In this document: one piece after another, positions 7,080 through 51,641 of the stretch | Numbering within the stretch: position 1 is the first letter of the stretch | Layout of the letters: each line of letters opens with the position of its first letter | NCBI RefSeq assembly: GCF_003030345.1 | Contig: NZ_CP028158.1 | Span: 1,736,001-1,800,000 of the forward strand | Origin: Plantactinospora sp. BC1 | Lineage (GTDB): Bacteria; Actinomycetota; Actinomycetes; Mycobacteriales; Micromonosporaceae | Direction of reading: 5' to 3' | DNA: 64,000 nucleotides | Program-made: the position numbers and the translations under genes | Notes under the pieces: generated by a model | Databases searched by the model: none | Told to the model about the DNA's origin: nothing | The model's input: only the letters and a program-made list of their open reading frames with translations

Positions 7080-7117
7080 CAGACTCTCCGACCGGGGGCA
7101 TCGGAGGGAGTGACCGC

Positions 7118-7303: not shown

Positions 7304-7367
7304 ACGGCCCGCCGGAACCGGCGACGTACCGCCGCTGTGGACCTGCGGGCCGGAGGTACCGCGAGGT

Positions 7368-9140: not shown

Positions 9141-9372
9141 TCCGCGCGACTACCCGGTTTCGGCCCGGTTAGTGGTCCGGGGCGGAGGGCCGGGCCCGGG
9201 ACGCGTCTCCCCCGGCGCCGCCAAAAATCGGCACGGACCGTCATGATCGGGCACGGGCGTCGATCCGGCATAGTGGGTTCGGATCGGGGTCGACGGGGAA
9301 CCAAGCGCCGACCTGCGCGTCACCGGTCACGGCAGGTGTCATTATGATGCGATGACGGACGGAAGGTGGGAG

Positions 9373-9711
9373 ATGTCCCCGGATCTCGAATCCACCGCCG
9401 CCGAGCTGTCCTTGACGGTGGTACGCGACGGCGCCGAGGTCCGGGTAGCAGCCGACGGCGAAGTCGACATGAGCACCGCCGACAGCCTACGGGACTGTCT
9501 GGACGAGCTGCTGGACCAGAAGCCGGAGAAGGTCGTGGTCGACCTGGCCGGCGTCACCTTCCTGGACTCCAGCGGTATCGCCACCCTCGTCCGTGCCTAC
9601 AACCGCGCGATCAACCAGGGTGCCGGGCTGAACGTGGTGAACTGCCAGGCGAACGTTCGCCGGGTCCTGGAGCTGACCGGCCTGCTCGCCGTCATGACCG
9701 AGGGCACCTGA
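9373..9711 (+). CDS. STAS-domain anti-sigma factor antagonist
   Basis: A 112-residue single STAS domain. Key motif: VVVDLAGVTFLDSSGIATLV, whose DSSG serine is the site phosphorylated by anti-sigma kinases in SpoIIAA/RsbV-type proteins. In the partner-switching scheme the unphosphorylated form binds the anti-sigma factor and frees a stress sigma factor. I prefer the ATG at 9373 because GGAAGG lies 6 bp upstream; an in-frame ATG at 9352 has no ribosome binding site and would add seven residues. No RsbW-type kinase or sigma factor is encoded in the window. Its position among genes with SigB-like promoter elements is suggestive. Confidence 0.88.
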   Translation: MSPDLESTAAELSLTVVRDGAEVRVAADGEVDMSTADSLRDCLDELLDQKPEKVVVDLAGVTFLDSSGIATLVRAYNRAINQGAGLNVVNCQANVRRVLELTGLLAVMTEGT

Positions 9712-9747
9712 GCCGGCGGGCCGGTCACGTCCCAGGTTCGCCCGGTC

Positions 9748-9773
9748 GAGTAGCCCGGGCCGGTTCTGGGTAG
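9748..9773 (+). promoter_or_regulatory. SigB-like promoter element (GAGT-N16-GGGTAG)
   Basis: GAGT (9748-9751), 16-nt spacer, GGGTAG (9768-9773). The PfkB-kinase GTG follows after only 10 nt and has no ribosome binding site, so transcription from here would give a leaderless message for the kinase-GH65 operon. Confidence 0.55.
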
Positions 9774-9783
9774 CTGGACGTCC

Positions 9784-10764
9784 GTGAGCGCTATCCCGCA
9801 GGTTCTGGTGATCGGACAGCTGGCCCGCGATCTCGTACTGGTGGTCGACCGGATGCCCCCGGCCGGCAGCGCCGCCGACGTCCGGTGCCGGCGCGAGCTG
9901 CTCGGCGGGAAGGGCGCCAACCAGGCGGTCGCGCTGGCCCAGCTCGGCGCGCGGCCGATCCTGCTCGCCGTGGCCGGCGACGACCGGGTCGGCGACGATC
10001 TGCTGGCCCAGGCGCGTCGGGACGGTGTCGACGTGTCGCAGGTACGCCGTCGGGTCGGAACGCTCACCGGGCTGATCGTGGAGGCGCTGGACGCCGACGG
10101 TGGCTGGCGCTACCTGCAACACCTGCCCGACGAGATGCTGCTGACCGAGGCGGACGTGCTGGCGGCCACCGAGGCGTTCGCCGCCGACGCCGTACTCGTG
10201 CAGCTCCAACAGCCACCGCAGGCGGCGCTGGCGGCGGCGCGGCTCGCCCGGGAGTCGGGCCGGCTGCTCGTACTCGACGGGACCCCGGCCGACGACGAGC
10301 ACCGCCGGCCGCTGCTGGCCGCCGCCGACGTGCTGCGGGCCGACGACCGGGAGACCGGGCTGTTGACCGGCGTCTCCGCCGACGACCCGGGGCAGGTCCG
10401 CGCCGCCGCCGAGAAGCTCCTGCACGCCGGCCCCGGTCTGGTCGTGCTCGGCCTCGGGCCGGCGGGAAACCTCTTCGTCTGGGCGGACCGTCGCTGGGGC
10501 CAGGGACATCTGCTGGTGCCGCTCACCGAGGAGCGGGTCGTGGACACCACCGGCGCGGGAGACGCCCTGACCGCCGCCCTCACCGTGGCACTGCTCCGCG
10601 GCGATCCGCCGCCGGACGCGGCCCGGTATGCGGTGGCCGCCGCCGGAGCCAGCGTCGGGCATCCCGGTGGCCGCCCGGCGCTCGACGGCAGCACGCTGCG
10701 CAACCGGGTGTCGGGGCTCGACCCCGAGCCGGGCGGGGACCCGCGGATCGGCGGGCCGGCGTGA
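9784..10764 (+). CDS. PfkB/ribokinase-family sugar kinase
   Basis: A 326-residue kinase of the PfkB family. The N-terminal signature GGKGANQAVALAQLG (residues about 40-54) and the C-terminal signature DTTGAGDALTAAL, with its catalytic Asp, are both intact, so it should be an active ATP-dependent kinase for a sugar or nucleoside. The ribokinase-like order of motifs favours a free pentose/hexose substrate, but the substrate cannot be read from sequence. The GTG at 9784 has no Shine-Dalgarno sequence and lies 10 nt after a GGGTAG box. Its stop overlaps the start of the GH65 gene (GTGA at 10761), so the kinase may act on a product of that phosphorylase or hydrolase. Confidence 0.9.
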   Translation: MSAIPQVLVIGQLARDLVLVVDRMPPAGSAADVRCRRELLGGKGANQAVALAQLGARPILLAVAGDDRVGDDLLAQARRDGVDVSQVRRRVGTLTGLIVEALDADGGWRYLQHLPDEMLLTEADVLAATEAFAADAVLVQLQQPPQAALAAARLARESGRLLVLDGTPADDEHRRPLLAAADVLRADDRETGLLTGVSADDPGQVRAAAEKLLHAGPGLVVLGLGPAGNLFVWADRRWGQGHLLVPLTEERVVDTTGAGDALTAALTVALLRGDPPPDAARYAVAAAGASVGHPGGRPALDGSTLRNRVSGLDPEPGGDPRIGGPA

Positions 10765-13313: not shown

Positions 13314-13315
13314 CG

Positions 13316-13411
13316 CCGCTGCCGACCGCCGGTCCGGCACCGCTGCCGGCCGCCGGTCCGGCACCGCTGCCGACGGCCGCTCCGGCACCACTGCCGACCG
13401 CCGGTCCGGCA
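13316..13411 (+). repeat. Four tandem copies of a 24-bp repeat
   Basis: Four contiguous 24-bp units starting at 13316, 13340, 13364 and 13388, differing at a few positions each. They begin 2 bp after the GH65 stop. If translated in the frame that overlaps that stop they would encode a PLPTAGPA octapeptide repeat, but I do not think this frame is a gene. The unit length is a multiple of three and the copies are in phase. Confidence 0.85.
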
Positions 13412-38886: not shown

Positions 38887-38910
38887 AGCCGCCGGGCTGC
38901 CCTGGCGGCT
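38887..38910. terminator. Possible terminator hairpin
   Basis: AGCCGCC (38887-38893) pairs perfectly with GGCGGCT (38904-38910) across a 10-nt loop, between the convergent WS/DGAT fusion and acyl-CoA synthetase genes. Short stem, so uncertain. Confidence 0.4.
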
Positions 38911-40739
38911 CAGTGGCCGCGGTACAGCGCCTCGACGTCTGTCGCGTAGCGGTCCTGCACCACGTCGCGTTTGATCTTCAGGGTGGGGGTCAGTTCGCCG
39001 TCGGCCTCGGTGAACTCCCGGGGCAGGATGCGGAAGGTCTTCACCTGTTCCGCCCTCGACACCGTCCCGTTGGCCCGGTCGACCGCGGCCTGGATCTCGC
39101 GCCGGAGGTTCGGGTCGTCACGCAGCTCCGCCACGGAACTGTCGGGGCGACCGTGGGCGGCGCGCCACCGCGGCCATGCCTGCGGGTCGATGGTGACGAG
39201 CGCGGCGACGTAGGGCCGGTCGTTGCCGACGAGCATGCACTGGCTGACGAGAGGGTGTACCCGGACCTTCTCCTCGACGGGTTCGGGAGCGAGGTTCTTT
39301 CCGGCGGCGGTGACGACGATCTCCTTCCTGCGTCCGGTGATGCTCAGGTAGCCGTCGTCGTCGACGCTGCCCAGGTCGCCGGTACGCAGCCAGCCGTCGG
39401 TGAAGGTGTCCCGGGTCGCGTCGGGGTTGTTCCAGTAGCCGTGGAACACCACCTCGCCACGGGCGAGGATCTCACCGTCGTCGGCGATCCGGATCTCCAC
39501 ACCGGGCAGCGGGCGTCCCACAGTGCCGATCCGGGTCGCCGACGGCAGGTTCACCGTCAACGCGGGCGACGTCTCGGTCAGCCCGTACCCCTCCAGCACG
39601 GTCACGCCGGCGCCCCGGAAGAAGTGGGCCAGCCGCTCGCCGAGCGGGGCGCCGCCGACGATCGCCATCCGGCAGCGCCCACCGAGGGTGGCGCGTAGCC
39701 GGCGGTACACCAGGGCGTCAAACACCGGGCGGGCCAGCCGCAGCAGCGGTCCCGGGCCGCGCCGGGTCTGCACCGCCCGACTGTGCCGGACGGCGACGCT
39801 CTCGGCGGCGGCGAACAACCATCCGCGGCGGGCGTCGTCGGCCGTCTGCCGGGCCCGGGCGTACATCTTCTCGAAGACCCGGGGCACCGCGAGAATGAAC
39901 GTCGGACGGTACCGGCGCAGTTGATCGAGTACTCCGGCGGTCTCGGCGCCGTGTACCAACGTGGCCCGGTTGTGCACCATGCCGACCTGGATCAGCCGGG
40001 GGAACGCGTGGGCGAGCGGCAGGAACAGCACCGTCGTCGCGCCGGGATGCAGCAACTGCGACAGCACCGCGGTCGCGGCGGCGACGTCGCAGGAGATGTT
40101 GCGGTGTGTCAGCACGCATCCCTTTGGCCGTCCGGTGGTGCCACTGGTATAGACGATCGTCGCCACGTCCGCGGCGGTGACCGCCCGACGACGCGTCTCC
40201 ACCTGCTCGTCGTCGACGGCGCGGCCGTGTGCGGCCAGCTCGATCAGGTCACCGGAGTCGATCCGCCACGTCTGCCGCAACGCCGGCAGGTCGGGGCGGA
40301 GGCCGGCGAGCATCGCGGCGTGCTCGGCGGTCTCCACGACACATCCCACCGCGCCGGAGTCGGACAGTATCCAGCCGAACTGCTCGGGGCTGGACGTCTC
40401 GTACACCGGGACCGTGACCGCCCCGATCGACCAGAGCGCGTAGTCGACAAGCGTCCACTCGTAGCGGGTACGGCTCATCAACCCGACCCGGTCGCCGGAT
40501 CCCACCCCGGCCGCGATGAGCCCTCGCGCGAGCCCCTGCACCTCATCCCGGAACTGGCGGCAGGAAACCGGGACAGCCCCACCGGTCCCGGTGCGCCGCA
40601 CCGGCCACGACCGGGGATCCGGATCCGGGCGTACGAACTGCACGGCCTCCGGATCCTGCCGGGCGTTCTCCCACACGACCTCGGCCAAGCTCGACGGTCG
40701 AAGACCGGCGAGCGGCGGCGCCGCCGTCACGTCCCGCAC
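38910..40739 (-). CDS. AMP-dependent long-chain acyl-CoA synthetase (FadD15-like)
   Basis: A 609-residue adenylate-forming enzyme. The P-loop-like motif YTSGTTGRPKGCVLTH lies near residue 195; further motifs are GYGLTETSP and YLSITGRRKEIVVTAAGKNLAPEPVEE, which contains the C-terminal catalytic Lys region. The layout matches the long-chain acyl-CoA ligase/FadD15 group that activates fatty acids. The start is uncertain: I use the GTG at 40739, 4 bp after AGGTGG; a TTG at 40754 is also possible. It should supply acyl-CoA to the WS/DGAT protein encoded convergently. Its promoter lies in the 235-bp gap after the heptose operon. Confidence 0.9.
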   Translation of the reverse strand: MRDVTAAPPLAGLRPSSLAEVVWENARQDPEAVQFVRPDPDPRSWPVRRTGTGGAVPVSCRQFRDEVQGLARGLIAAGVGSGDRVGLMSRTRYEWTLVDYALWSIGAVTVPVYETSSPEQFGWILSDSGAVGCVVETAEHAAMLAGLRPDLPALRQTWRIDSGDLIELAAHGRAVDDEQVETRRRAVTAADVATIVYTSGTTGRPKGCVLTHRNISCDVAAATAVLSQLLHPGATTVLFLPLAHAFPRLIQVGMVHNRATLVHGAETAGVLDQLRRYRPTFILAVPRVFEKMYARARQTADDARRGWLFAAAESVAVRHSRAVQTRRGPGPLLRLARPVFDALVYRRLRATLGGRCRMAIVGGAPLGERLAHFFRGAGVTVLEGYGLTETSPALTVNLPSATRIGTVGRPLPGVEIRIADDGEILARGEVVFHGYWNNPDATRDTFTDGWLRTGDLGSVDDDGYLSITGRRKEIVVTAAGKNLAPEPVEEKVRVHPLVSQCMLVGNDRPYVAALVTIDPQAWPRWRAAHGRPDSSVAELRDDPNLRREIQAAVDRANGTVSRAEQVKTFRILPREFTEADGELTPTLKIKRDVVQDRYATDVEALYRGH

Positions 40740-40974: not shown

Positions 40975-42015
40975 TCAGCGCCCGGCGACCGCCCCTGGCC
41001 CCGTCCGCTCGACCTCCTCGACCGCCGCCAGGACATCCGCCACTCGAAGTGACGCCAACGCCGGGTGTGGCCCGGACCCGGTCGGCGCCGGTCCCTTCCG
41101 CCGGTGCGCAGGTTCCGGCTGTCCCGACGGCTCGCGTCCCGGCTGCCGGGCGGCAGGGATGTCGGGCGTCGGGAGCCGCCACCCGATCGCCGGCCCGGCC
41201 CAGAGGGCGCGATGGCAGAGGCGGTCGGCAGGCGGTCCCCACAGCGCCGGTGACACGGGCCCGAAGAGCAGTACCGACGCGGTGCCGTATGCGGTGGCGA
41301 GGTGGCCGATGCCGGTATCACCGGCAACCACCAGCCGGCCGTGCGCGACCAGCGCGGCCAGCTCGCCGACGTCGGTGCGCCCGGCCAGCACGGCCGACCC
41401 GGGCAGCCCGGCCCGGGCGGCGACCTCCTCGGCGAGGTCGCGCTCGCCCGGTGCACCGGTCACCAGCACCCGGTGTCCCCGGCGGGCCAGTTCCCGAGCC
41501 ACGGCGGCGAACCGGTCGGGCGGCCAGCGCCGCTCGACGGCCTTCGCACCGGGGTGCACGATGCTGGCCCCGACGGGCAGTTCACCCGGCGTCGGCCGGT
41601 GCAGCGCCAGGTCGGACGGGTCGGTGGCGATGCCGTACCAGTCGAGCAGCCGACACCAGCGGGCGACCTCGTGCTCGTCGGGCCGCCACACCGGGCCGAC
41701 GTGGTGGCCGGCCTCGGCGCAGGCGAAGGCCATCAGCTGCCGGGGCTGGGCGGCCCGCAGCAACCGGTGCGACTGCGGCCCCCGACCGTGCAGGTTCACC
41801 GCCCGTTCCGGAGCCATCGGCGGCCACCGGTACGGGCCCAGCCCGTCGACGTCGACCTGCTCGTCGATGCCGCCGACCAGCTCGACCAGGGGCCCGAGCC
41901 AGCGCGGTGCGGCCAGCACCAGCCGCTCTCTGGCGAAGGCGGCACGGAGGGCGCGGAGCGCCGGCACGGCGGTGGCGAGGTCGCCGATGCCGAGGGCGCG
42001 CAGCACGAGGATCAC
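40975..42015 (-). CDS. Glycosyltransferase family 9 (heptosyltransferase-like)
   Basis: A 346-residue GT9 protein. It begins MILVLRALGIGDLATAVPALRALRAAF, has SIVHPGAKAVERRWPPDRFAAVARELARRGHRVLVTGAPGE and the C-terminal ATAYGTASVLLFGPVSPALWG, all typical of ADP-heptose:LPS heptosyltransferase-like enzymes. This supports transfer of the heptose made by the operon. It is the last gene; its GTG at 42015 overlaps the SDR stop (GTGA). The C-terminus carries a Pro/Gly-rich extension. Acceptor unknown. Confidence 0.88.
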   Translation of the reverse strand: MILVLRALGIGDLATAVPALRALRAAFARERLVLAAPRWLGPLVELVGGIDEQVDVDGLGPYRWPPMAPERAVNLHGRGPQSHRLLRAAQPRQLMAFACAEAGHHVGPVWRPDEHEVARWCRLLDWYGIATDPSDLALHRPTPGELPVGASIVHPGAKAVERRWPPDRFAAVARELARRGHRVLVTGAPGERDLAEEVAARAGLPGSAVLAGRTDVGELAALVAHGRLVVAGDTGIGHLATAYGTASVLLFGPVSPALWGPPADRLCHRALWAGPAIGWRLPTPDIPAARQPGREPSGQPEPAHRRKGPAPTGSGPHPALASLRVADVLAAVEEVERTGPGAVAGR

Positions 42016-42704
42016 GGGTACGAACTCTCCCGCTCGGCGCAGACCACCAGCTCCCGTACGGCGCACCCCGGCGGCTGGGAGAGCGCGAAGAGTACCGCGT
42101 CGGCGACGTGCCCGGGGTCGTTGAGTACCGCGTCGGCGCCGGGCCGGTACTGCTCGTCCCGGCCGTCGAAGAACGCGGTACGCATGCCGCCCGGGACGAG
42201 CAGGGTGACGCCGACCGTGCCGGCCAGTTCGGCGGCGAGAGCCCGGGTGAAGCCGACGACCCCGAACTTCGCCGCGCAGTAGGCGGTGGCGTCGCTGACC
42301 GCCTTGACCCCGAGGGTGGAGGCGACGGTGACGACCGTGCCGTGCGAGCGTTCCAGCGCCGGCAGGGCGGCGCGGACGACCGCGGCGGTGGCGAAGAGGT
42401 CGACCGTGACGACCCGTTCCCAGACCTCGGCGGGGACGTCGGCCAGCCGTCCGGGCGTGTCGACACCGGCGGCGGTGACCACGCCGTCGAGGCCGCCGGC
42501 CTGCTCGGCGAGCTGCCGGGTGGCCCGCTCGGCGGCCCGGGTGTCGGCGAGGTCGCACTCGATCCACGGCACGCCGTCGGCCGGTGCCTGCCGATCCAGC
42601 ACGTACGGCCGTCCGCCGGCCTTCTGCACCGCGGTCACGACGGCGGCGCCGAGTCCGCTGGCGCCGCCGGTGACCAGGATCGCCTTGTCGGTCAGGTTGT
42701 TCAT
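42012..42704 (-). CDS. Classical SDR oxidoreductase in the heptose operon
   Basis: A 230-residue short-chain dehydrogenase: AILVTGGASGLGAAVVTAV (cofactor), VTAAGVD, and YCAAKFGVVGFTRALA with catalytic Tyr and Lys. The cofactor site lacks the longer substrate domain of HldD-type ADP-heptose epimerases, so it is probably not the missing epimerase, but it may oxidise or reduce a sugar carbonyl in this pathway. ATG at 42704 overlaps the HldE stop; its stop overlaps the GT9 start. Confidence 0.88.
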   Translation of the reverse strand: MNNLTDKAILVTGGASGLGAAVVTAVQKAGGRPYVLDRQAPADGVPWIECDLADTRAAERATRQLAEQAGGLDGVVTAAGVDTPGRLADVPAEVWERVVTVDLFATAAVVRAALPALERSHGTVVTVASTLGVKAVSDATAYCAAKFGVVGFTRALAAELAGTVGVTLLVPGGMRTAFFDGRDEQYRPGADAVLNDPGHVADAVLFALSQPPGCAVRELVVCAERESSYP

Positions 42705-44275
42705 CGTCGTCCTTCCGCGAGTTGACGATCGCCGGCCCGGGCGGCGGCGATGGTGCCGGAGGTGGAGCGGCCGTCGAGGTACGGCACGAGTACCGTCTCG
42801 CCGCCCCAGCGCCGGACCTGCTCGGCCTCGGGCAGGTCCGGCTGGTCGGGGTCGGCGCCCCGGGCGTAGTCGCCGCCCTTGACCCAGATGTCCGGGCGGA
42901 GCCAGGAGAGCACCGCCTGCGGCGTCGGCTCGTCGAAGATCACGACGGCGTCGACGCAGTCCAGGGCGGCCAGCAGGCCGGCCCGGTCGGCCTGCGGGGT
43001 GAGCGGTCGCCCCGGACCCTTCAGCTCGGCGACGCTGCGGTCGGAGTTGAGGCAGACGACGAGGCAGTCGCCGAGCCGCCGGGCGGCCCGCAGGGTGGCC
43101 AGGTGACCGGCGTGCAGGAGGTCGAAACAGCCGCCGGTGGCGACCACCGTCCCGCCGTTCGCGCGGGTCCGGGCCAGCACGGCGGAGGCCGCCTCGCGCC
43201 CGTCACCGTCGACCCCGGGCGCGCCGACCGGATGCCCGCCGTCCGCTACCGCGCCTGCGACGTCGCGCGCCCCGCCCGGACGGGCTGCGGCGTGCGATCC
43301 GGCGGCGGCGTGCGATCCGCCCGCTCCGGCGGCGGCGTGTGATCCGCCTGGGCCGGCCGGTCCAGGGAGCGTGGCGGCACCGGTCGGTCCAGGGAGCGTG
43401 GCGGCGCCGCCGGCCGCGACATAGGTCGAGGCGACCCGGACCGCCTCCTCCACCGCCTCCGACAGGAGCGCCCCGTCGGCCAGGGCCGCCGCTGCGGCGA
43501 CGGCGAACCGGTCACCGGCACCGCAGGTGTCGCCGGTGGCGGCCACCGGCGCGGGTACGACCAGCGGGGCCCCGCCGTTGTGGCAGAGCAGGCTGCCGTC
43601 GCCGCCCATCGTGACCGCGACCGCGGCGGCCCGCCACCGGTCCCGCAGCAAACGGGCCGCGCGGGCCACCCCGGACAGTCGCGGCCCGGAGCCGGCGTCG
43701 CCGGTGAGCCGGAACAGCTCTCCCTCGTTCGGGGTCACCAGACGGCTGCCGGGCACCGCCGCCGGTCCGCGCGGATGCGGGTCCCACACCACGGGTGCGG
43801 TGCTGCCGGCGAGTGCCTGGCGGATCGCCGACAGTCCGGCCACGCCCCGCCCGTAGTCACTGACCAGGATCGCGCCCGCACCGGCCAGGATCTCCAGCGC
43901 GGCGTCCGGTGGTTCGCCCGGAGGTTGCGCGTCACCGCCCCGGTCCAGCCGGAGCAGCGTCCGGCCGCCGGTCCGCAGCCGGATCTTCTCCGGAGTCGCG
44001 CCGGGCAGCGGCAGCGGATAGAGCCGTACGCCGGCGGCGGTGAGCAGCGCGGTCAGCCGGGCCCCGGCCGGGTCGTCGGCGAGCGCGGTGACCAGCGCGA
44101 CGTCGTGCCCGTCGGCGGCGGCGAGCAGGGCGGCGAGCCCGGCCCCACCCGGCCGGTCGGTGGCCGACTCCTCCGCCAGGACCGGCACCGGGGCGTCCGG
44201 GCAGAGCCGGTCGACCCGACCGTCGACGTCCCGGTCCAGCAGCGTGTCGCCGACCACCACCAGTGGGCCGCTCAC
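42701..44275 (-). CDS. hldE: Bifunctional heptose 7-phosphate kinase / heptose 1-phosphate adenylyltransferase (HldE)
   Basis: A 524-residue two-domain enzyme. Residues about 1-285 are a PfkB-type kinase (DTLLDRDVDGRVDRLCPDAPVPVL, catalytic GDTCGAGDRFAVA) that phosphorylates D-glycero-D-manno-heptose 7-phosphate at C1. Residues about 375-515 are a cytidylyltransferase-like domain (GGCFDLLHAGHLATLRAARRLG, with HxGH; WVKGGDYARG), which makes ADP-heptose. Between them lies a 90-residue Gly/Ala/Pro linker with tandem repeats (ATLPGPTGA, SHAAAG) that is unusual for HldE. GTG at 44275 overlaps the GmhA stop. This is the core ADP-heptose enzyme of the operon. Confidence 0.92.
   Translation of the reverse strand: MSGPLVVVGDTLLDRDVDGRVDRLCPDAPVPVLAEESATDRPGGAGLAALLAAADGHDVALVTALADDPAGARLTALLTAAGVRLYPLPLPGATPEKIRLRTGGRTLLRLDRGGDAQPPGEPPDAALEILAGAGAILVSDYGRGVAGLSAIRQALAGSTAPVVWDPHPRGPAAVPGSRLVTPNEGELFRLTGDAGSGPRLSGVARAARLLRDRWRAAAVAVTMGGDGSLLCHNGGAPLVVPAPVAATGDTCGAGDRFAVAAAAALADGALLSEAVEEAVRVASTYVAAGGAATLPGPTGAATLPGPAGPGGSHAAAGAGGSHAAAGSHAAARPGGARDVAGAVADGGHPVGAPGVDGDGREAASAVLARTRANGGTVVATGGCFDLLHAGHLATLRAARRLGDCLVVCLNSDRSVAELKGPGRPLTPQADRAGLLAALDCVDAVVIFDEPTPQAVLSWLRPDIWVKGGDYARGADPDQPDLPEAEQVRRWGGETVLVPYLDGRSTSGTIAAARAGDRQLAEGRR
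43359..43405 (-). repeat. 27-bp repeats encoding the HldE interdomain linker
   Basis: Two 20-bp identical blocks (43359-43378 and 43386-43405) with a 27-bp period, encoding ATLPGPTGA-type nonapeptides in the minus-strand HldE gene. The adjacent 43270-43345 region carries further GGSHAAAG repeats. They look like recent in-frame expansions of the linker. Confidence 0.7.
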
Positions 44276-44979
44276 GAGCACGCCTCCTCGGTGGAGAGCA
44301 CGGTGAGCAGCCGCCGCGCGCCGGAGGGATCCCACCCGTTCTGCGCCATGGGCGGCGGCGCCGTACCGTCCCGGGCGGCGACCGGCCGGCCGTTGCCGGG
44401 GTGGCGCGGCCGGGACAGGGCCTGGTCGACGTAGGAGCAGAGCAGGTGGGTGGAGACCAGGTGCAGCTCCTGCACCACCTGCGGTTCGGGCGACGGCACC
44501 GCCAGCACCTCGGCACAGGCGTCGGCGAGCGGGTTGGGCGCCGGGCCGGTGAACGCCCAGCAGGTCAGTCCGGCCCGCCGGCCGGCGTCGGCCGCCGCGA
44601 GCAGGTTCTCGCTGCGGCCGCTGGTCGACATCAGCAACAGGACGTCGCCGGGCCGGCCGTGTGCCCGTACCTGCCGGGCGAAGACCTCGGCGAAGCCGTA
44701 GTCGTTGCCGATCGCGGTCAGCGAGGAGGTCTCGGCGGTCAGCGCGATCGCGGAGAACGGGGCACGGTCGTCGCGGAGCTTGCCGACCAGCTCGGCGGTG
44801 AGGTGCTGGGCCTCGGCGGCGCTTCCACCGTTGCCGGCGGCGAGCAGCCGCCCGCCGTCGGAGAGGATCCGGGCGAGCTGGCCGCCCCACCGGCTCAGCC
44901 GCCGGGCCGCGTCACGGTAGCCGGGCAGGGCGCGGGACAGCTGGCTCAGGTGCGCGTCGAGAAGAAGCTGTTCGGACAT
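44272..44979 (-). CDS. gmhA: Sedoheptulose 7-phosphate isomerase (GmhA-type SIS protein)
   Basis: A 235-residue SIS-domain protein. GNGGSAAEAQHLTAELVGKL carries the phosphosugar-binding Ser and the helix typical of GmhA, and LLLMSTSGRSENLLAAADA supplies the second phosphate-binding loop. It should convert sedoheptulose 7-phosphate to D-glycero-D-manno-heptose 7-phosphate, the first step of ADP-heptose synthesis. The C-terminal 45 residues (HPGNGRPVAARDG...) are an extra tail compared with the usual family length of about 195. ATG at 44979 overlaps the glycosyltransferase stop by one base; its stop overlaps HldE. Confidence 0.9.
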   Translation of the reverse strand: MSEQLLLDAHLSQLSRALPGYRDAARRLSRWGGQLARILSDGGRLLAAGNGGSAAEAQHLTAELVGKLRDDRAPFSAIALTAETSSLTAIGNDYGFAEVFARQVRAHGRPGDVLLLMSTSGRSENLLAAADAGRRAGLTCWAFTGPAPNPLADACAEVLAVPSPEPQVVQELHLVSTHLLCSYVDQALSRPRHPGNGRPVAARDGTAPPPMAQNGWDPSGARRLLTVLSTEEACS

Positions 44980-46196
44980 CAGGCCACCGCCCCGCTGGTC
45001 TGGGGCGTACCGCAGACGGCGGTGTAGACGGCGCCGAGCCGCGCCGCCGTCCGGGTCCACGAGTAGCCGGTACGGATCCGGTCCACGGCGGCGAGACCGT
45101 AGCGGTGGCGCCGGTCCGAATCGGCCAGCAGATGGCGCAGCACCGCGCCCAACGTCTCCGGGTCACGGGGCGGTACGAGGTCGCCGGTGAGGCCGGGCAC
45201 GACCGTGTCGGTGAGACCGCCGACGGCGGTACCGAGCACCGGTACCCCGCAGGCCATCGCCTCCAGCGGGGTCAGCCCGAAGGGTTCGTACCAGGGGGTG
45301 GCGACGAGGATGTCGGCCGACCGGTACCACCGGGGCATCTCCGCGCGGGGTACCGCCCCGACCAGGCGTACCCGGTCGGCGACCCCCTCCGACTCGGCCA
45401 GCGCACGCAGCCGGTTGGCGAACCCGTCCTCGCCGAGCCGGGCCGCCGGGGGGCCGCCGATCAGCACGTACTCGGCCTCGGGCACCATCCGCAGCGCCCG
45501 GACGACGTCGAGGAAACCCTTCCGTTCGACCAGCCGGCCGACGCCCAGCAGCCGGGGCCGGCCCGGTTCCCGGCTGACGGCGGAACCGTCCGGGGTGAAG
45601 ACGTCCGGGTTGACCCCGGAGGGTACGACGCTGATGGCGGAGCGGGGTACGCCCATCCGGGTCAGTTCGGCCACCTCGTCGCGGCACTGCGCGACGACCC
45701 GGTCGACCCCTCGGCCGAGCATCCGCTCGTATCTGATCCGCTGTGGCGGGCTGGTGTCGGCGGCGCCCTGGTGGCGGCGCTTCACGGTGCCGAGGGCATG
45801 GTAGGTCTGCACCACCGGCACCCCGCTCTGCCGGCCGGCGACGAGGGTGGCGAGGCCACTCATCCAGAAGTGCGCGTGTGCGACGTCGGGCCGCCACAGC
45901 CCGTCCTGCCAGTGTCGGGCGAGCCAGCGCCCGAAGTCGGCCATGTACGGCAGCAGCTCGTCCTTTGGCACCGGCTCCGGCGGGCCGGCCGGCACGTGCA
46001 GCACGCTGACCCCGTCCCGCATCGGCACCACCGGGCCCTGGTGCGGCTGGTCGCGTCGGGTGTAGACGTGCACGTCGTGGCCCTGGTCGGCCAGCGCGGC
46101 GGCGAGTTCGGCGACGTGGGTGTTCTGGCCGCCGGCGTCCGGGCCGCCGAGTTCGGCGAGCGGACTGGCGTGTTCGGAGATCATCGCGATGCGCAT
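44979..46196 (-). CDS. Glycosyltransferase family 4
   Basis: A 405-residue GT-B enzyme with GGPDAGGQNTHVAELAAALADQGHDVHVYTRR at the N-terminal domain and the C-terminal retaining GT4 signature EPFGLTPLEAMACGVPVLGTAVGGLTDTV, in which the EX7E Glu pair is intact. VVQTYHALGTVKRRHQG resembles sucrose-phosphate synthase/mycothiol GT-like acceptor loops. Sugar donor and acceptor unknown; the operon context suggests a glycan backbone or branch. The ATG at 46196 lies within the 3' end of the preceding gene (16-bp overlap). Confidence 0.9.
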   Translation of the reverse strand: MRIAMISEHASPLAELGGPDAGGQNTHVAELAAALADQGHDVHVYTRRDQPHQGPVVPMRDGVSVLHVPAGPPEPVPKDELLPYMADFGRWLARHWQDGLWRPDVAHAHFWMSGLATLVAGRQSGVPVVQTYHALGTVKRRHQGAADTSPPQRIRYERMLGRGVDRVVAQCRDEVAELTRMGVPRSAISVVPSGVNPDVFTPDGSAVSREPGRPRLLGVGRLVERKGFLDVVRALRMVPEAEYVLIGGPPAARLGEDGFANRLRALAESEGVADRVRLVGAVPRAEMPRWYRSADILVATPWYEPFGLTPLEAMACGVPVLGTAVGGLTDTVVPGLTGDLVPPRDPETLGAVLRHLLADSDRRHRYGLAAVDRIRTGYSWTRTAARLGAVYTAVCGTPQTSGAVA

Positions 46197-47152
46197 CGTT
46201 CCTCCTGAAGCAGTCGGTCCCAGTCCGCGAGGAACCGGTCGAGGCCGTAGCGGGTGGTGGCGGCGTGCCGGGCCCGTTCACCCATGGCCCGCGCGGCGGC
46301 CGGATCGTCGATCAGCCAGGCGGCGGCCTCCCGCAGGGTGTCGAGGTTGGTGGAGAGGACGCCCGCCTCGGGCGGTACGGCGGCGACCGCCTCGGTGCTG
46401 GCGAGTACGACGACCGGCATCCCGATCGTCATCGCCTCCAGGAGGCTGAGCCCGAGCGACGTCCAGCGGCACAGGTGCAGGTAGGCCCGGCGTCGGGCGA
46501 GCTGCTCGTGCAGCCGCGCCTGGGGCAGGTCGTAGGTGCCGAGGCGGTCGGCGGGCAGGCCGACGGCGTCGGGGAGCGCGTCGACGCCCATGCCGAAGAC
46601 GTCCAGCGGGGCGACCGTGGCGAAGTGTCCGAACAGGTCGGTTCCGGTGACCCGCCAGCGGCGGACCGGTTCGTTGGTCACCACCGCCAGCCGGTCGAGG
46701 CTGCCGTCGTACCGGACCGGGGGTGGGACGATGCCGTGTTCGATCACGGCGGTGCGGGTGGCGCCGGTGTCCCAGAACAGGTCGTTGAAGTGGGTGACGT
46801 GCGCGACGAGCAGGTCGTCGCGGTCGGCCATCGGGTGCCGGGTGTTCGGTACGTCGCCCTTCGGGGTGTTGTGCTCGACGTAGATCGCCGGTAGGTCCCG
46901 GCCGGGGCGCCGGCCCAGCCAGCGTTCGGCCAGCTCCAGTTCCTCCGGCCGTTGCAGGATCACCAGGTCGACCGGTTCGGCGGCGAGCCGCTCCGGGGGC
47001 AGTTCGCGTACCGTCGCCGGCCAGTCGTAGGTCCGGGCCCGGCCGAGGCCGTACGGCCCCCGGTCCGGCGTGACCGGTACCAGGTAGTGGTGCTTGCCGT
47101 GGACGAACGCGGTGGTCCACGAGCCGTGCACGTGCCACAGCAGGATGTTCAC
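46181..47152 (-). CDS. Glycosyltransferase (GT-B, glycosyltransferase 4-like)
   Basis: A 323-residue protein. It starts NILLWHVHGSWTTAFVHGKHHYLVPV and has AIYVEHNTPKGDVPN and the C-terminal RWTSLGLSLLEAMTIGMPVVVLA, a GT4/GT1-like nucleotide-binding region (EAMTIGMPV). It is shorter than typical GT4 enzymes (about 380). GTG at 47152 overlaps the stop of the GmhB-GT9 gene (GTGA). Donor unknown. Confidence 0.8.
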   Translation of the reverse strand: MNILLWHVHGSWTTAFVHGKHHYLVPVTPDRGPYGLGRARTYDWPATVRELPPERLAAEPVDLVILQRPEELELAERWLGRRPGRDLPAIYVEHNTPKGDVPNTRHPMADRDDLLVAHVTHFNDLFWDTGATRTAVIEHGIVPPPVRYDGSLDRLAVVTNEPVRRWRVTGTDLFGHFATVAPLDVFGMGVDALPDAVGLPADRLGTYDLPQARLHEQLARRRAYLHLCRWTSLGLSLLEAMTIGMPVVVLASTEAVAAVPPEAGVLSTNLDTLREAAAWLIDDPAAARAMGERARHAATTRYGLDRFLADWDRLLQEERCASR

Positions 47153-48840
47153 CCTGCGCCTCCTCCTGCTGTCGGGTGGCCGACCCCGAAGCCGGAGCCG
47201 GCCGGTGCTCGTGGTGGTGGCGGTCGGGATGCGAGCAGGTCGACGGCGGCGAGCACGGCGGCCGGGTCGAGTCGGTCCAGGCAGGGATGGCCGGGCAGCG
47301 GGCAGACGCTGGCGCGGCTGTCCCGGCACCCGGCGCCGGCATCGCCGAGCCGCACCACCGGTACCCGGTAGGGCGCCCACTGTCCGAACGGGACGGTGGG
47401 CGCGAAGAGACTGACCACCGGGGTGCCGACCGCGGCGGCCAGGTGCGCCGGCCCGGTGTTGCCGACGACCAGGCAGGCGGCCCGGGTCAGCAGCGCGGCC
47501 AGCTCGCCGAGCGAGGTACGGCCGCCGAGGTCGACGCCGCCGCTTGCCGCCACCCGTGCGGTCAGGTCCCGCTCCCCCGGGCCGCCGGTGACCAGTACCC
47601 GGTGACCGGCCCGGGTGAGCGCGGCGACGATGTCGGCGCAGCGCTGCGGCGGGCAGGCTCGGGCCGGTACCGACGCGCCGGGGTGCACGACGACGTAGCC
47701 GGCCGGCAGGTCGGCGGGCGGTCGTCCGGTCAGCGCGTCGGCCCGCAGCCGCAGCGTTGGCTCGTCGCCGGCCGGCAGCGCGAAACCGGCGGCGGCGGCC
47801 AGCGACAGCGCCCGCTCCGGCTCCGGCACCCCGGTCGGCACCCGGTGCCGCAGGTCCAGCAGGCTGCCCGGATAGTCGTCGCTGATCGCACCGACCAGCG
47901 GTACCCCGGCCATCCGCAGCAGCAGGGCGAGCGGCAGGGCGGACTGGTGGAAGGAGGTGAAGATCAGCGCCTGGTCCGCCTGCACGGCGGCGAGCCGGGC
48001 GGTCAGTTCCCGCATGTCGTCCGGCCGCATCGGGGCCGGTGCCGGGTCGATCCAGGGCAGCGGCCACTCGATCAGCTCGTCGACGCCGGGCAGCAGCCGG
48101 GCGGCGCCCCGGCCCCGGGGGCCGCAGAGCATGACGACGCGATCCGCACCGGCGGCGACCGCCCGGATCGCCGGCCCGGTGACCAGGACGTCCCCGGCCG
48201 AGTCGCTCCGCGCCACCAGCACCGTGCCCGCTCGCCCGCCGGCCCGGCGCGGCGCCGTCGACGTCCGGCCGGTGGTCGATCCGGTGGGCAGCAGTGCCTG
48301 CCGGCGGAGCAGTTGGTCGACCGCGTCGGCCAGGTCGGCGGCGACCGCCGGGGCGGCGGCGACCTCCTCCGGCCGGGTCACCGGGGTCGGTACCAGGATT
48401 CCGGTGGCGCCGGCCGCGAGGGCGGCGGTCATGTCCCGGCCGATGTCGCCGATCACCGCGCAGCGGCGCGGGTCGGTGCCGAGCGCCCGGGCGGCGGCCT
48501 CGACGAGTCCGGGTGCGGGCTTGCGGCACCGGCAGCCGTCGCCGTCACCGTGCGGGCAGATCTGCCAGGTGTCGAAGGGGCCGAGCAGTTCCTCCACCCG
48601 GGCGTTGACGGCGGCCAGCTCGGCGGCGGTGAAGAGGCCACGGGCCAGCCCGGACTGGTTGGTGACCACCCCGAGTCGCAGTCCGGCGGCGCGCAGCCGG
48701 GCCAGCGCCGCCCCGGCGCCGGGCATCGGGCGTACCTTTTCCGGGTCGCCGTTGTAGGGCACGTCCTCGATCAGGGTGCCGTCGCGGTCGAGCAGTACGG
48801 CGTCGAAGAGCGGTCCGGGCGGCCGTGCCGGCCCGGTCAT
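47149..48840 (-). CDS. Heptose bisphosphate phosphatase (GmhB) fused to a GT9 glycosyltransferase
   Basis: A 563-residue fusion. Residues about 1-180 are a HAD-IIIA phosphatase: LLDRDGTLIED (nucleophile Asp), TNQSGLARG, CPHGDGDGCRCRKPAP (the Cys/His zinc loop typical of GmhB) and GDIGRDMTAALAAG. This removes the C7 phosphate of the heptose bisphosphate. After an Arg/Thr-rich linker (about 181-210), residues 211-545 are a GT9 glycosyltransferase (RSDSAGDVLVTGPAIRAVA, VVHPGASVPARACPPQRCADI, NTGPAHLAAAVGTPVVSLFAP). The fusion links heptose activation and heptosyl transfer. ATG 48840 overlaps the GT2 stop; its own stop overlaps the next GTG. Confidence 0.92.
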   Translation of the reverse strand: MTGPARPPGPLFDAVLLDRDGTLIEDVPYNGDPEKVRPMPGAGAALARLRAAGLRLGVVTNQSGLARGLFTAAELAAVNARVEELLGPFDTWQICPHGDGDGCRCRKPAPGLVEAAARALGTDPRRCAVIGDIGRDMTAALAAGATGILVPTPVTRPEEVAAAPAVAADLADAVDQLLRRQALLPTGSTTGRTSTAPRRAGGRAGTVLVARSDSAGDVLVTGPAIRAVAAGADRVVMLCGPRGRGAARLLPGVDELIEWPLPWIDPAPAPMRPDDMRELTARLAAVQADQALIFTSFHQSALPLALLLRMAGVPLVGAISDDYPGSLLDLRHRVPTGVPEPERALSLAAAAGFALPAGDEPTLRLRADALTGRPPADLPAGYVVVHPGASVPARACPPQRCADIVAALTRAGHRVLVTGGPGERDLTARVAASGGVDLGGRTSLGELAALLTRAACLVVGNTGPAHLAAAVGTPVVSLFAPTVPFGQWAPYRVPVVRLGDAGAGCRDSRASVCPLPGHPCLDRLDPAAVLAAVDLLASRPPPPRAPAGSGFGVGHPTAGGGAG

Positions 48841-49862
48841 CGCCGGTCACCGGGGTACCGCCCGATCGGGCGTGGCAACTCGGCGCGGTGCCGCCACCAG
48901 CCCCGCAGCCAGTGGGTGACGGCGAGCGGCGGGATGACGGCGCTGGTCACCAGCATCGTGCCGACCTCTGCCGGGGTACCCGGCCCGGGCGCGATCCGCG
49001 CGGTTGCGAACCGGGCGGTACCGGCCAGCCAGGCGGTGCCGGCCAGGGCGGCGACGGCGGTGAGCGGGCGGTGCATCCGGGAGCCCCGGGCGGCCACGGC
49101 ACCGCCCAGGGCGGCGACGGCCAGCACCGCCGCGCCGGTCAGGGCCGCGTGCCGGTGGCGTCGTCCGGCCGGTATGCCGAGTTCGGTGCGCCAGCTCGGG
49201 CCGTAGAGCCGGCGCAGCAGGGCGTCGTCGGAGTTGCCCCGCTGGGTGCGCAGGCTGATCCAGCGGCTCTCCGGGCGTACCGGATGGCGGACGCCGCGGG
49301 TGCCCCGGAGCAGTCGCCAGCCAGCCAGGCGTACCCGGTGGGCCAGCTCCGCGTCCTCCCGGTAGGCCCGGGGGAACCGTTCGTCGAAGCCGCCGACGGC
49401 GGCGAGCGCGACCCGCCGGTAGGCCATGTCCGCGGTGATCCACTCACCGTCGGCGAGGCCCGCGGTGACCCGTTCCCAGTCGGTCGGCCGGCGACCGGCC
49501 GGCAGCGGCACGCGTATCCCGCCCTGCACCCCGCCGACCCGGTCCGGCACGGCGAGGTCCGTCCGCAGCCGCGCCAGCCAGTCCGGCGCCGGCAGCACGT
49601 CGTCGTCCAGGAACGCCACCCAGGGATGCCGGGCCGCCCGCCAGCCGAGGTTGCGGGCCGCCGCCGGGCCGGCGCCACGTCCGCGCAGGACCTTGGTGTA
49701 CGGCGCGAGCGCCCCCGGTACGGCCAGCTCGGTGCCGCCGGTGGGCCGGTCGTCGACCAGGAGGATTTCCAGTTCACCGCCCTCGGTCACCTGCCCGGCG
49801 AGGATGCCGAGCAGGTCGGCGAGGCTGTCCCGGCCGAGGGTCGGTACGACGACGCTGATCAC
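48837..49862 (-). CDS. Glycosyltransferase family 2 with a C-terminal membrane region
   Basis: A 341-residue GT2 enzyme: VISVVVPTLGRDSLADLL, FLDDDVLPAPDWL (DxD-like motif in DDD) and EDAELAHRVRLAGWRL (catalytic ED). The C-terminal third has two or three hydrophobic segments (about residues 230-325), suggesting membrane association. GTG at 49862 overlaps the carbamoyltransferase stop. It is the only clearly membrane-bound transferase of the operon. Confidence 0.88.
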   Translation of the reverse strand: MISVVVPTLGRDSLADLLGILAGQVTEGGELEILLVDDRPTGGTELAVPGALAPYTKVLRGRGAGPAAARNLGWRAARHPWVAFLDDDVLPAPDWLARLRTDLAVPDRVGGVQGGIRVPLPAGRRPTDWERVTAGLADGEWITADMAYRRVALAAVGGFDERFPRAYREDAELAHRVRLAGWRLLRGTRGVRHPVRPESRWISLRTQRGNSDDALLRRLYGPSWRTELGIPAGRRHRHAALTGAAVLAVAALGGAVAARGSRMHRPLTAVAALAGTAWLAGTARFATARIAPGPGTPAEVGTMLVTSAVIPPLAVTHWLRGWWRHRAELPRPIGRYPGDRR

Positions 49863-51520
49863 CGCCCCGCTCCGAGGTCGCCGCGGTGCACGGCGTACGG
49901 GCCGATGGCGAGCAGGTCCACCGGTGCGGAGCCGAAGAGTTCCATCGCCTCGCGCGGGGTGTCCACCATCGGCCGGCCGGCGGTGTTGAGCGAGGTGTTG
50001 ACCACCACCGGCAGCCCGGTGAGGCGGTCGAACTCGGCCAGCATCTCGGCCACCAGCGGTTCGGTCCCCGGGTCGACCGTCTGCACCCGGGCGGTGCCGT
50101 CGACGTGCACCACTGCCGGGATCCGGTCCCGCCACTGTGGCGCGACCCGGTGCACGAAGAGCATGTACGGGCTGGGCAGTACGCCGTCGAAGATCTCGGC
50201 GGCCCGTTCGGCCCGGACCATCGGAGCGATCGGGCGGAACTGCTCCCGCCCCTTGACGTCGTTCATCCGGCGGGTCGTCTCGGGGTCGCCGGGGTGGGCC
50301 AGCAGCGACCGGTGACCCAGCGCCCGTGGCCCGTACTCGCTGCGTCCCTGGAACCAGGCGACGATGCCGTTGTCGGCGAGTACCCGGGCCGCCTCGGCGG
50401 CGATCGAGTCCGGTCGCCGGTACGGCAGCGCCGCGCGGCGCAGTTCGGCCTCCAGTTCCTCGTCGGTCCAGCCCCGGCCGAGGTCGACCCCGGGCATCGG
50501 CGCGGTGGTGTCGCCGAGCACGCTGTCCAGGTGCAGCGCCGCGCCGAGTGCGGTGCCGGCGTCACCGGCCGCCGGCTGCACCCACACCCGCTGGTAGGGG
50601 CCCTCGGCGGCGATCCGGGCGTTGGCCACGCAGTTCAGGGCGACCCCGCCGGCCATGGTCAGCGTGGTCGGGCCGTCGGCCGCCTCGTGCAGCCAGCGGG
50701 CGAGGTCGAGGATCACCTCTTCCAGCCGGGCCTGCACGCTGGCGGCGAGGTCGGCGTGCTCGCCGGTCATCTCCGCGTCCGGCGGGCGCGGCTTGGCCAG
50801 CGAGGCCCAGTCGATCCGGTCGACGGTGAAGCCGCCGTCGTCGGTCACCCGGACCAGTTCGCGCAGCAGCCCGAGGTGCCGGGGCTCGCCGTAGGAGGCG
50901 AGGGCCATCACCTTGTACTCGTCGCTGGAGTGCAGGAAGCCGAGGTGCCGGGTGAGGTCCTCGTAGAGCAGGCCCAGCGAGTGCGGCAACTGCTGGGCGG
51001 CGAGCTGCCGCAGCCGTCCCTCCCGGTAGACCCCGCCGAGGTGGCTCGCGGTCTCGCCCCGGCCGTCGAGCACGAGTACCGCCGAGCCGGTCGTGCCGGT
51101 CGGGTCCGGGGGTACGGCCAGCCCGGCCGAGGCCGCGTGCGCGACGTGGTGCGGTACGAACCGTACGATCTCCGGGTCGAGGCCGGGCAGCACCTCGGCG
51201 AGGAACTGCGGCGCCCGCTTGGCGTACTCGATCCGCAGCCAGTCCCACGGGTCGGTCAGGCCGAGTTCGGCCGCGTCCCGGCACAGGCCGGGGTCGAAGG
51301 AGTAGGCGACCGCGTCGAGGCTGGCGGCGTCGATGCCGGCCTGCCGCAGGCACCAGGCGGCGGAGAGTTCGGGCAGTTCCCAGGCGGAGAAGGCGACCGG
51401 ACGCTTTCCGTGCTTACGCCGGCTGAACCGCTCCTCCTCGGCTGCGGCCACCACCCGGCCATCCACGACCAGTGCGGCCGCCGGGTCATGGAAGATCGCG
51501 TTGATCCCGAGTACGCGCAT
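49859..51520 (-). CDS. Carbamoyltransferase (NodU/CmcH family)
   Basis: A 553-residue O-carbamoyltransferase. The N-terminal Kae1-like domain (about 1-340) carries RVLGINAIFHDPAAALVVDG, AEEERFSRRKHGKRP, HHVAHAASAG (metal-binding His) and MAGGVALNCVAN; the C-terminal domain (about 360-550) carries RSEYGPRALGHRSLLAHP. The family moves a carbamoyl group from carbamoyl phosphate to a sugar hydroxyl via carbamoyl-AMP. It is the first gene of the nine-gene operon. ATG at 51520 with AGGAG 7 bp upstream. It predicts an O-carbamoylated heptose or glycan. Confidence 0.93.
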   Translation of the reverse strand: MRVLGINAIFHDPAAALVVDGRVVAAAEEERFSRRKHGKRPVAFSAWELPELSAAWCLRQAGIDAASLDAVAYSFDPGLCRDAAELGLTDPWDWLRIEYAKRAPQFLAEVLPGLDPEIVRFVPHHVAHAASAGLAVPPDPTGTTGSAVLVLDGRGETASHLGGVYREGRLRQLAAQQLPHSLGLLYEDLTRHLGFLHSSDEYKVMALASYGEPRHLGLLRELVRVTDDGGFTVDRIDWASLAKPRPPDAEMTGEHADLAASVQARLEEVILDLARWLHEAADGPTTLTMAGGVALNCVANARIAAEGPYQRVWVQPAAGDAGTALGAALHLDSVLGDTTAPMPGVDLGRGWTDEELEAELRRAALPYRRPDSIAAEAARVLADNGIVAWFQGRSEYGPRALGHRSLLAHPGDPETTRRMNDVKGREQFRPIAPMVRAERAAEIFDGVLPSPYMLFVHRVAPQWRDRIPAVVHVDGTARVQTVDPGTEPLVAEMLAEFDRLTGLPVVVNTSLNTAGRPMVDTPREAMELFGSAPVDLLAIGPYAVHRGDLGAGR

Positions 51521-51556: not shown

Positions 51557-51641
51557 GGAAGATCAGCAACTTCCCATAAGTGAGGGGTGTCCAAATAGTC
51601 CCTTGACCGCTCCGGCTGCCGGGCACCGCCACCGGCCTGGA

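Follow-up and report, generated by a model that had tools for sequence, protein, structure and literature searches.

The window, a 64,000-nucleotide stretch of the genome of the soil bacterium Plantactinospora sp. BC1, carries nine minus-strand genes between positions 40975 and 51520, in which neighbours overlap by 1–16 bp (4, 4, 4, 16, 1, 4, 4 and 4 bp, in order from the first gene to the last). The first gene, Carb (49859–51520), encodes a NodU/CmcH-type O-carbamoyltransferase of 553 residues, and the second a GT2 glycosyltransferase of 341 residues (48837–49862; PF00535, Glycos_transf_2). These are followed by a 563-residue fusion of a GmhB-type HAD phosphatase to a GT9 enzyme (GmhB-GT9b, 47149–48840; PF13242/PF00702 and PF01075), a 323-residue GT1/GT4-like glycosyltransferase of GT-B fold that we term GT1 (46181–47152; PF00534, 33.6 bits), a 405-residue GT4 glycosyltransferase (44979–46196; PF13439/PF00534) and a 235-residue GmhA-type sedoheptulose-7-phosphate isomerase (44272–44979; PF13580, SIS_2, 71 bits). 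Completing the operon are HldE, a 524-residue heptose-7-phosphate kinase and heptose-1-phosphate nucleotidyltransferase (42701–44275; PF00294, PfkB, and PF01467, CTP_transf_like), a 230-residue short-chain dehydrogenase (SDR, 42012–42704; PF00106, adh_short, 125 bits) and GT9a, a second, 346-residue member of the GT9 heptosyltransferase family (40975–42015; PF01075, Glyco_transf_9, 82 bits). Gene ends and Pfam assignments confirm the nine overlapping genes and their families as described in a sequence-only reading, including the classical short type of the SDR. A gap of 235 bp separates the operon from the next gene, an acyl-CoA ligase (38910–40739); this ligase, a cyclic-nucleotide-binding protein and stress proteins were rejected as parts of the operon, since they do not recur at other clustered loci.

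GmhA, HldE and GmhB make ADP-D-glycero-D-manno-heptose, normally for lipopolysaccharide (LPS). Pfam, NCBIfam and PDB matches show that the isomerase, kinase, 7-phosphatase and nucleotidyltransferase of the NDP-D,D-heptose route are all encoded here, at family level. Searched against NCBIfam, the three proteins match the GmhA, HldE and GmhB models best, and each of these models scores under its curated cut-off (gmhA, 143.6 bits against 209; PRK11316 for HldE, 247 against 521; PRK08942 for the GmhB domain, 124.6 against 178), and the heptosyltransferase models that match GT9a all do likewise; 2xbl, a solved relative of GmhA, matches at 143 bits. Thus the three names depend on family, motifs and operon combined, and the substrates of these enzymes and of both GT9s could differ. 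Catalytic motif patterns, drawn from general knowledge, were counted over the orthologues. The GmhB zinc loop is present in 107 of 107 (the tighter LDRDGT in 79), HxGH of HldE in 101/101 and its GAGD in 95/98, QExH....H of GmhA in 94/97 and its N-terminal motif in 84/97, and YxxK of the SDR in 92/92. The SDR shares 59–84% identity with 20 chosen orthologues, and its orthologue is missing from six of 23 stretches outside Micromonosporaceae. In the family set, 81 of 83 loci have GmhB and GT9 fused, and at all 26 other loci the two are separate.

A published mark of HENases with broad NTP use is the STTR5 motif, (F/L)xxGRSTT. The window's HldE reads YLDGRSTS, which has the Arg at STTR5 position 5 without matching the strict motif; that Arg occurs in 88 of 95 HldE orthologues and the strict motif in three. 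With this residue, ADP may not be the sole nucleotide that HldE uses. What had first been read as a complete ADP-heptose pathway stands as a route to NDP-D,D-heptose, complete at family level and perhaps not confined to ADP. The absence of the HldD epimerase was borne out, as a model search of the genome gave no match above cut-off (the best of 15 reached 112 bits against 274.6).

Pfam detects five GT9 genes in the genome, every one of them at its three HldE loci. GT9 is a family of which not every member need use heptose, and our assignment, made by family match, is best taken as predicted heptosyltransferase. The structure model of GT1 (pLDDT 94.6) has BshA as its nearest solved fold (TMq 0.75), while GT4 is kin of sucrose-phosphate synthase and MshA (6kih, 204 bits; MshA, 186 bits). 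Given that autotransporter GT9 heptosyltransferases exist (TIGR04414, by name), and that this model matches the GmhB-GT9 fusion, if weakly (20.6 bits, with the cut-off at 200), we considered whether the GT9s put heptose on secreted proteins. We judge this very improbable: an operon with five glycosyltransferases points rather to an oligosaccharide, and the recurrent neighbours that could be typed (see below) include no acceptor protein.

Carb carries both domains of the NodU/CmcH/TobZ enzymes, PF16861 (218 bits) and PF02543 (164 bits), and its nearest solved relatives are 7xb6, TobZ and GdmN, with the novobiocin enzyme also among its solved relatives. We take its N-domain to hold the HxxxH metal site, and its C-terminal domain to be the carbamoyltransferase domain. 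Among orthologues, HHxxHA is found in 43 of 43 and a tighter C-domain pattern in 30 of 43. Carb adjoins GT2 at every one of 39 loci. The GT2 model (pLDDT 93) has a GT-A fold, with chondroitin polymerase nearest (TMq about 0.45), and three long C-terminal helices (residues 235–257, 264–290 and 297–324) that, in the model, look like membrane anchors; hydropathy alone gave weak and uneven signals for these helices, and we relied on the structure model instead. UDP-glucuronate decarboxylase (UXS) orthologues lie at nine of 26 Carb loci outside Micromonosporaceae, with a nucleotide sugar dehydrogenase of the UDP-glucose dehydrogenase type (Ugd) at five of these nine, and at none of the Micromonosporaceae loci, the window included. 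Since Carb is tied to GT2, and UXS lies at those nine loci, the second sugar donor is likely to be UDP-xylose or UDP-glucuronate, a linkage drawn from outside the family, and the carbamoyl group may sit on this second sugar rather than on heptose. Furthermore, in one genome (G193; three contigs, completeness 100) Carb and GT2 lie beside UXS while GT1 and HldE have no match. The carbamoylated sugar could thus just as plausibly be a pentose or a uronic acid. Of the O-carbamoylated heptose glycan originally proposed as the product, the heptose route, the GT9s and Carb are indeed encoded, but a carbamoyl group on the heptose itself is not established by these linkages.

Searching related genomes for the same gene order, as the sequence-only reading had advised, we find that the operon spans at least 16 actinobacterial families and has a second copy in this genome. 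Of 296 Actinomycetota genomes, 26 carry a strong GT1 orthologue, and these 26 represent 16 families. Across these 296, GT1 and Carb are found together in 24, Carb alone in four and GT1 alone in two (Fisher p 5e-29), and across 150 genomes of genus g8 the corresponding counts are 48, one and two (p 1e-35), both p values ignoring shared descent. Outside the family, 23 stretches hold a near-complete gene set; named loci, the nearest being from Micromonosporaceae, hold most of it too, as a rule lacking Carb and GT2. Such recurrence is more than chance, and the same gene set in distant relatives probably reflects an undescribed shared sugar chain. The idea that heptose genes are exceptional in a Gram-positive was ruled out, as many actinobacterial genomes carry them.

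The second copy in Plantactinospora sp. BC1 lacks exactly Carb and GT2, and synteny places it at a site common to many Micromonosporaceae; GT1 is carried by 124 of 200 genomes from this family. We refer to loci with Carb as type A and those without as type B. The two do not form clean clades within Micromonosporaceae: in a midpoint-rooted tree of four proteins from 100 loci, L062 (A) and L068 (B), both from one genome, lie side by side, and L114 (A) falls among B loci, which calls for loss, regain or gene conversion to be considered. Some B labels reflect contigs that end early, as L077 and L103 carry GT2.

This pattern bears on whether Carb and GT2 are a separate unit, making a carbamoylated xylose or uronic acid for the same or another glycan and sharing a promoter with the heptose genes. 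That exactly this pair is missing from the second copy, and stands with UXS in G193, is what such a unit would predict. However, GT1, from the heptose unit, accompanies Carb in 48 of 49 Carb-positive g8 genomes, and the G193 pair may be a decayed remnant, making us doubtful of a separate unit. G008 and G204 have heptose genes without Carb, the reverse of G193, so the products of the two halves may be partly distinct.

Our conclusion from this set of results, which we put at roughly 60%, is that this conserved actinobacterial operon makes a glycan that contains heptose and probably carries an O-carbamoyl group. Judging by families and motifs, GmhA would isomerise sedoheptulose-7-phosphate, HldE would phosphorylate the product, the GmhB domain would then remove the 7-phosphate, and HldE would activate the sugar as D-glycero-D-manno-heptose linked to ADP, or possibly also to CDP or UDP, the D,D form being used unchanged without HldD. 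The two GT9 enzymes would add heptose, and GT4 and GT1 further sugars; at the membrane, GT2 would add another sugar, with UDP-xylose or UDP-glucuronate as its donor, and either this sugar or a heptose would be O-carbamoylated by Carb. The SDR would oxidise or reduce a sugar, and the second genomic copy would make an uncarbamoylated core. We regard a glycan or glycolipid of the envelope as the likeliest product; this fate is a guess, as the nine genes include no flippase, ligase or polymerase. From its taxonomy, with the nearest named loci in Micromonosporaceae, the host presumably has no LPS. We advance more tentatively, and with considerable doubt, a broader proposal: that one conserved operon makes an envelope glycan common to many actinobacterial families, an equivalent, in Gram-positives, of the LPS inner core with two D,D-heptoses and an O-carbamoylated xylose or uronic acid, whose carbamoyl-free version is core to many Micromonosporaceae.

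Neighbour-family clustering of the flanks ruled out our initial statement that no neighbour recurs across families. The sugar-related recurrent neighbours are UXS (six loci, three families), an extra GT2 (six loci, six families) and Ugd (five loci, two families); topoisomerase IB (six loci, two families), a sigma factor (five, three) and a response regulator (four, two) also recur. One further neighbour family, without a type, is found at nine loci in two families, and a few more recurring sets resemble wrong-strand ORFs of the operon itself.

Could the product be a diffusible, carbamoylated heptose natural product? Septacidin and hygromycin B of Streptomyces, according to a review, derive a heptose from sedoheptulose-7-phosphate (PMC10221265), the antibiotic enzymes TobZ, GdmN and that of novobiocin are relatives of Carb, and the Carb-bearing form is patchy in genus g8 (49 of 150 genomes). 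Against this, the three window ORFs longer than 800 residues are a biotin-dependent carboxylase, a GH65 and a glycolipid-type fusion, none of them a PKS or NRPS; nucleoside or aminocyclitol genes, a point of difference from septacidin and hygromycin B, are absent from the nine genes, as are scaffold genes of these kinds from those window ORFs that were typed; the typed recurrent neighbours are those listed above; and the Carb-less form sits in shared Micromonosporaceae synteny, with GT1 broadly distributed in the family. A specialised metabolite is therefore unlikely in our view.

The envelope glycan we favour resembles the Gram-negative LPS inner core (GmhA, HldE, GmhB, HldD, WaaC/WaaF) in its activation steps and GT9s, at family level. 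The operon differs in the GmhB-GT9 fusion, in adding an SDR, GT4, GT1, GT2 and Carb, and in a genome without HldD above cut-off; no Kdo or lipid A gene is among the nine. A GT9, an HldE-like nucleotidyltransferase and a NodU-type carbamoyltransferase also act on a single sugar unit in the making of bleomycin and tallysomycin. The GT9s and Carb here would be their counterparts, and a literature search for those genes gave no paper. Tang et al. (2022) are said to describe tridomain NDP-heptose synthetases of actinobacteria, whereas GmhA and HldE are separate ORFs at all 102 loci tested. NDP-heptose synthesis in actinobacteria is thus already in print, and that work may already describe the operon; no description of the nine genes was among the matches listed (titles and abstract starts, with few subscription papers covered). 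In the Pseudomonas LPS core, a putative carbamoyltransferase, WapO (PA5005), modifies heptose at HepII O-7 (PMC8005017); the 13C signal of the carbamate is reported near 159 ppm. The heptose that WapO modifies comes from the pathway encoded here, but its acceptor is LPS HepII, while Carb is linked to a GT2.

One paper leaves open what most producers use heptose for, and remarks that genes adjoining the heptose enzymes may hint at it (PMC11573728). This operon is such a hint, its partners being two GT9s, GT1, GT4, GT2, the SDR and Carb, and sometimes UXS, Ugd and a further GT2; our survey identifies the partners that co-occur and the genomes with one copy or two. NDP-heptoses activate the innate receptor ALPK1, so their wide production among actinobacteria is relevant to which bacteria ALPK1 can sense.

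Upstream of Carb by ~50 nt, on the minus strand, lies a conserved element, GAAGTYGNTGATCT (51560–51573). Sigma-70 and terminator scans gave no match. The element is present at 15 of the 17 Micromonosporaceae loci with Carb. Its exact C form has no further match in the window and occurs at 14 of 166 loci, once at each and all of the Carb-bearing type. Outside Micromonosporaceae, an ACTTCTC-like upstream element is found at eight of 26 loci against 0.9 expected from simple shuffles, which is suggestive.

The nine genes at 40975-51520 of the window lie consecutively on the minus strand, overlapping by 4, 4, 4, 16, 1, 4, 4 and 4 bp, and are transcribed in the order Carb (the carbamoyltransferase), GT2, GmhB fused to GT9b, a GT1-like gene, GT4, GmhA, HldE, SDR and GT9a; an acyl-CoA ligase on the same strand is the tenth gene, its start 235 bp past the ninth. 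This is a real operon, and the sequence-only reading had its gene list and coordinates correct and its parts rightly named. GmhA, HldE, GmhB and the heptosyltransferases match their NCBIfam equivalog models with scores that fall short of the curated cut-offs, and we therefore use these activity names at the family level. We regard it as an instance of a conserved actinobacterial heptose-glycan operon, of which we found no published account in the literature searched. Nearby, an ORF at 36148-38796 matches models for both MGDG synthase and wax ester synthase/DGAT; if it is a single gene, it would be an unusual fusion of glycolipid type.

Sequence matches to solved relatives were found for GmhA (2xbl), HldE (kinase 4e84, nucleotidyltransferase 5x9q), GmhB (3l8h and 4pnh, with a CxH...CxC loop) and Carb (7xb6, TobZ and GdmN). 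Motifs (for example the GmhB zinc loop, HldE HxGH and SDR YxxK) were counted only in fetched orthologues with more than 45% identity and 70% coverage. The zinc loop is present in 107/107 GmhB orthologues (tighter LDRDGT pattern, 79/107), HxGH in 101/101 and GAGD in 95/98 of HldE, QExH....H in 94/97 of GmhA (tighter N-terminal motif, 84/97), YxxK in 92/92 of SDR, HHxxHA in 43/43 of Carb (tighter C-domain pattern, 30/43) and DDD in 40/40 of GT2. GxTGxxH was found in 88/94 GT9a orthologues, tighter patterns for GT9b in 98/106 and for GT4 in 84/103, and one GT1 pattern in 12/101. The lack of an HldD epimerase, remarked on from the window, extends to the whole genome, where none of 15 matches passed the cut-off (best 112 versus 274.6 bits).

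PMC11461863 and PMC11573728 describe the STTR5 motif of nucleotidyltransferases. The window HldE reads YLDGRSTS, with arginine at STTR5 position 5 and without the strict motif; among orthologues, 88/95 have the arginine and 3/95 the strict motif. Given this arginine, HldE might make CDP- or UDP-heptose. Tang et al. 2022, who reportedly described actinobacterial tridomain NDP-heptose synthetases, may cover part of these findings; in contrast to those synthetases, GmhA and HldE are distinct ORFs in 102/102 of our loci.

Among 32 stretches fetched from outside the Micromonosporaceae, a check for the gene set found a near-complete module at 23. Carb was present in 22 of these, GT2 in 22, GmhB in 23, GT9b in 22, GT1 in 21, GT4 in 22, GmhA in 20, HldE in 22-23, SDR in 17 and GT9a in 21, by identity thresholds of our own setting and at loci mostly picked via a GmhB-GT9 match, which biases the counts toward those genes. 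Outside the 23 stand L154-L157 (Carb pieces); L158, L160 and L161, all three lacking Carb and GT2 and the last two having diverged sets; and the partial loci L162 and L163. GmhB and GT9 are fused in 81 of the 83 family-set loci, two of which are MAGs of unstated family, and split in all 26 others; the fusion is a trait of the Micromonosporaceae set. Operons with Carb (type A) and without it (type B) occur together in seven named Micromonospora genomes. In a four-protein tree of 100 loci, all those outside the family set are type A except L158, while inside it A and B are intermixed. Topoisomerase IB adjoins the operon at 19 of 26 chosen no-Carb loci (25 from the family set, including the MAG L122, plus L158).

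In one draw of 296 Actinomycetota genomes, Plantactinospora sp. BC1 among them, strong GT1 orthologues (E <= 1e-90) were found in 26 genomes of 16 families, with weaker ones (E <= 1e-10) in 5 more; Carb orthologues of at least 62% identity in 28, the next matches dropping to 50%; and HldE (E <= 1e-20) in 38. GT1 and Carb occur together in 24 genomes, GT1 alone in two (G008, G204) and Carb alone in four, namely G193 and three assemblies broken into hundreds of contigs (G206, G269, G200). The genus to which G193 belongs has large genomes and is of the same class as BC1; there, 49/150 genomes have Carb, 50/150 GT1 and 48/150 both. Fisher p-values for this co-occurrence are 5e-29 (296 genomes) and 1e-35 (the genus), treating as independent genomes that are not. 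Within the Micromonosporaceae, GT1 is present in 124/200 genomes and 29/44 genera, in two copies in 11, and absent from 76/200 at the threshold used.

The sequence-only reading took the product to be an O-carbamoylated heptose-containing glycan. Its heptose part is well supported; where the carbamoyl group sits is not. According to PMC8005017, P. aeruginosa-type LPS is carbamoylated on heptose via the putative transferase WapO, and PMC10221265 describes sedoheptulose-7-phosphate-derived heptose in the Streptomyces products septacidin and hygromycin B. Carb and GT2 are adjacent on the same strand in 39/39 loci counted; of the excluded L154-L157, GT2 adjoins Carb in L154, L156 and L157, and the L155 contig stops 230 bp past Carb. 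At 9/26 non-family Carb loci there is also the epimerase of L044 or a gene 55-73% identical to it. This epimerase scores 321 bits against human UDP-glucuronate decarboxylase UXS1 (next family, 118), and NCBIfam gave only dehydratase matches, all below cut-off, for the UXS-type genes. UXS lies less than 20 bp from Carb in L044, L049 and L050 and at the GT9a end in L057 and L159, and 5/9 UXS-bearing loci have a nucleotide sugar dehydrogenase of the UDP-glucose dehydrogenase type; no UXS was found within the stretches examined at any of the 17 Carb-bearing family loci. L154 holds a UXS-Carb-GT2 set at 9237-13375 in G193 (3 contigs), a genome with no GT1 or HldE match, and this set may be a remnant or an independent unit. 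The modelled GT2 structure combines a GT-A domain with three helices, 23-28 residues long, at the C-terminus; chondroitin polymerase is among the solved structures closest to it, at a low TM-score (~0.45). GT2 would thus be a membrane-associated enzyme that takes its sugar from UDP-xylose or UDP-glucuronate, and Carb would act on the GT2 product or on heptose. GT1 is modelled confidently as a GT-B fold (pLDDT 94.6), nearest to BshA, with PimB' and sucrose-phosphate synthase among the matches, and the best matches of GT4 are sucrose-phosphate synthase at 204 bits and MshA at 186 bits; these relatives indicate no sugar donor for either.

Among the genes around 37 clustered loci, those shared by at least three loci and by more than one family encode UXS, an additional GT2-family protein, a dehydrogenase of UDP-glucose dehydrogenase type, topoisomerase IB, a sigma factor and a response regulator, besides one family that was left untyped; those typed included no transporter, flippase or polymerase. 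The extra GT2-family gene, which may be a pathway member, flanks the operon at six loci of six families (L047, L048, L051, L052, L057, L058; PF00535 in two members). A sigma-70-type factor, typed in two members, lies near the operon at L044, L045, L049, L119 and L130, which represent 3 families. The element GAAGTYGNTGATCT, at 51560-51573 of the window and likewise ahead of Carb in L062-L136, stands 50-53 nt before the Carb start at 15/17 family loci; its exact C form occurs once in each of 14/166 loci and is absent elsewhere, and it may serve the operon as promoter or operator. Type B loci such as L009 and L042 have different conserved words upstream of GmhB, GTTTACTCC and GGGAACCCG, at 54/59 loci each.

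The BC1 genome, a single contig of 8.33 Mb, has HldE nucleotidyltransferase domains in three places and five PF01075 GT9 matches: a pair in the window operon, another pair in a second copy at ~5.44 Mb and a single one at a third locus at ~4.42 Mb. These positions coincide, and therefore each full PF01075-detected GT9 accompanies an HldE. Apart from the HldE loci, a GT9 fragment with one stop lies at 8295248-8295523 (64% identity over 88 residues). In the second copy, L009, nothing matches Carb or GT2, and GmhB-GT9b, GT1, GT4, GmhA, HldE, SDR and GT9a are 58-84% identical to their window counterparts. The third, L151 (4415000-4434999), carries at ~7056-11054 an HldE that clears its cut-off with 208 bits, together with a GT9 and a GT2; its 20 kb gave no GmhA or GmhB match. 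Another carbamoyltransferase, at ~2994800-2999500 (L152), has as neighbours an NAD epimerase and a gene of thymidylate-synthase type; the set resembles a polyoxin-type nucleoside antibiotic cluster.
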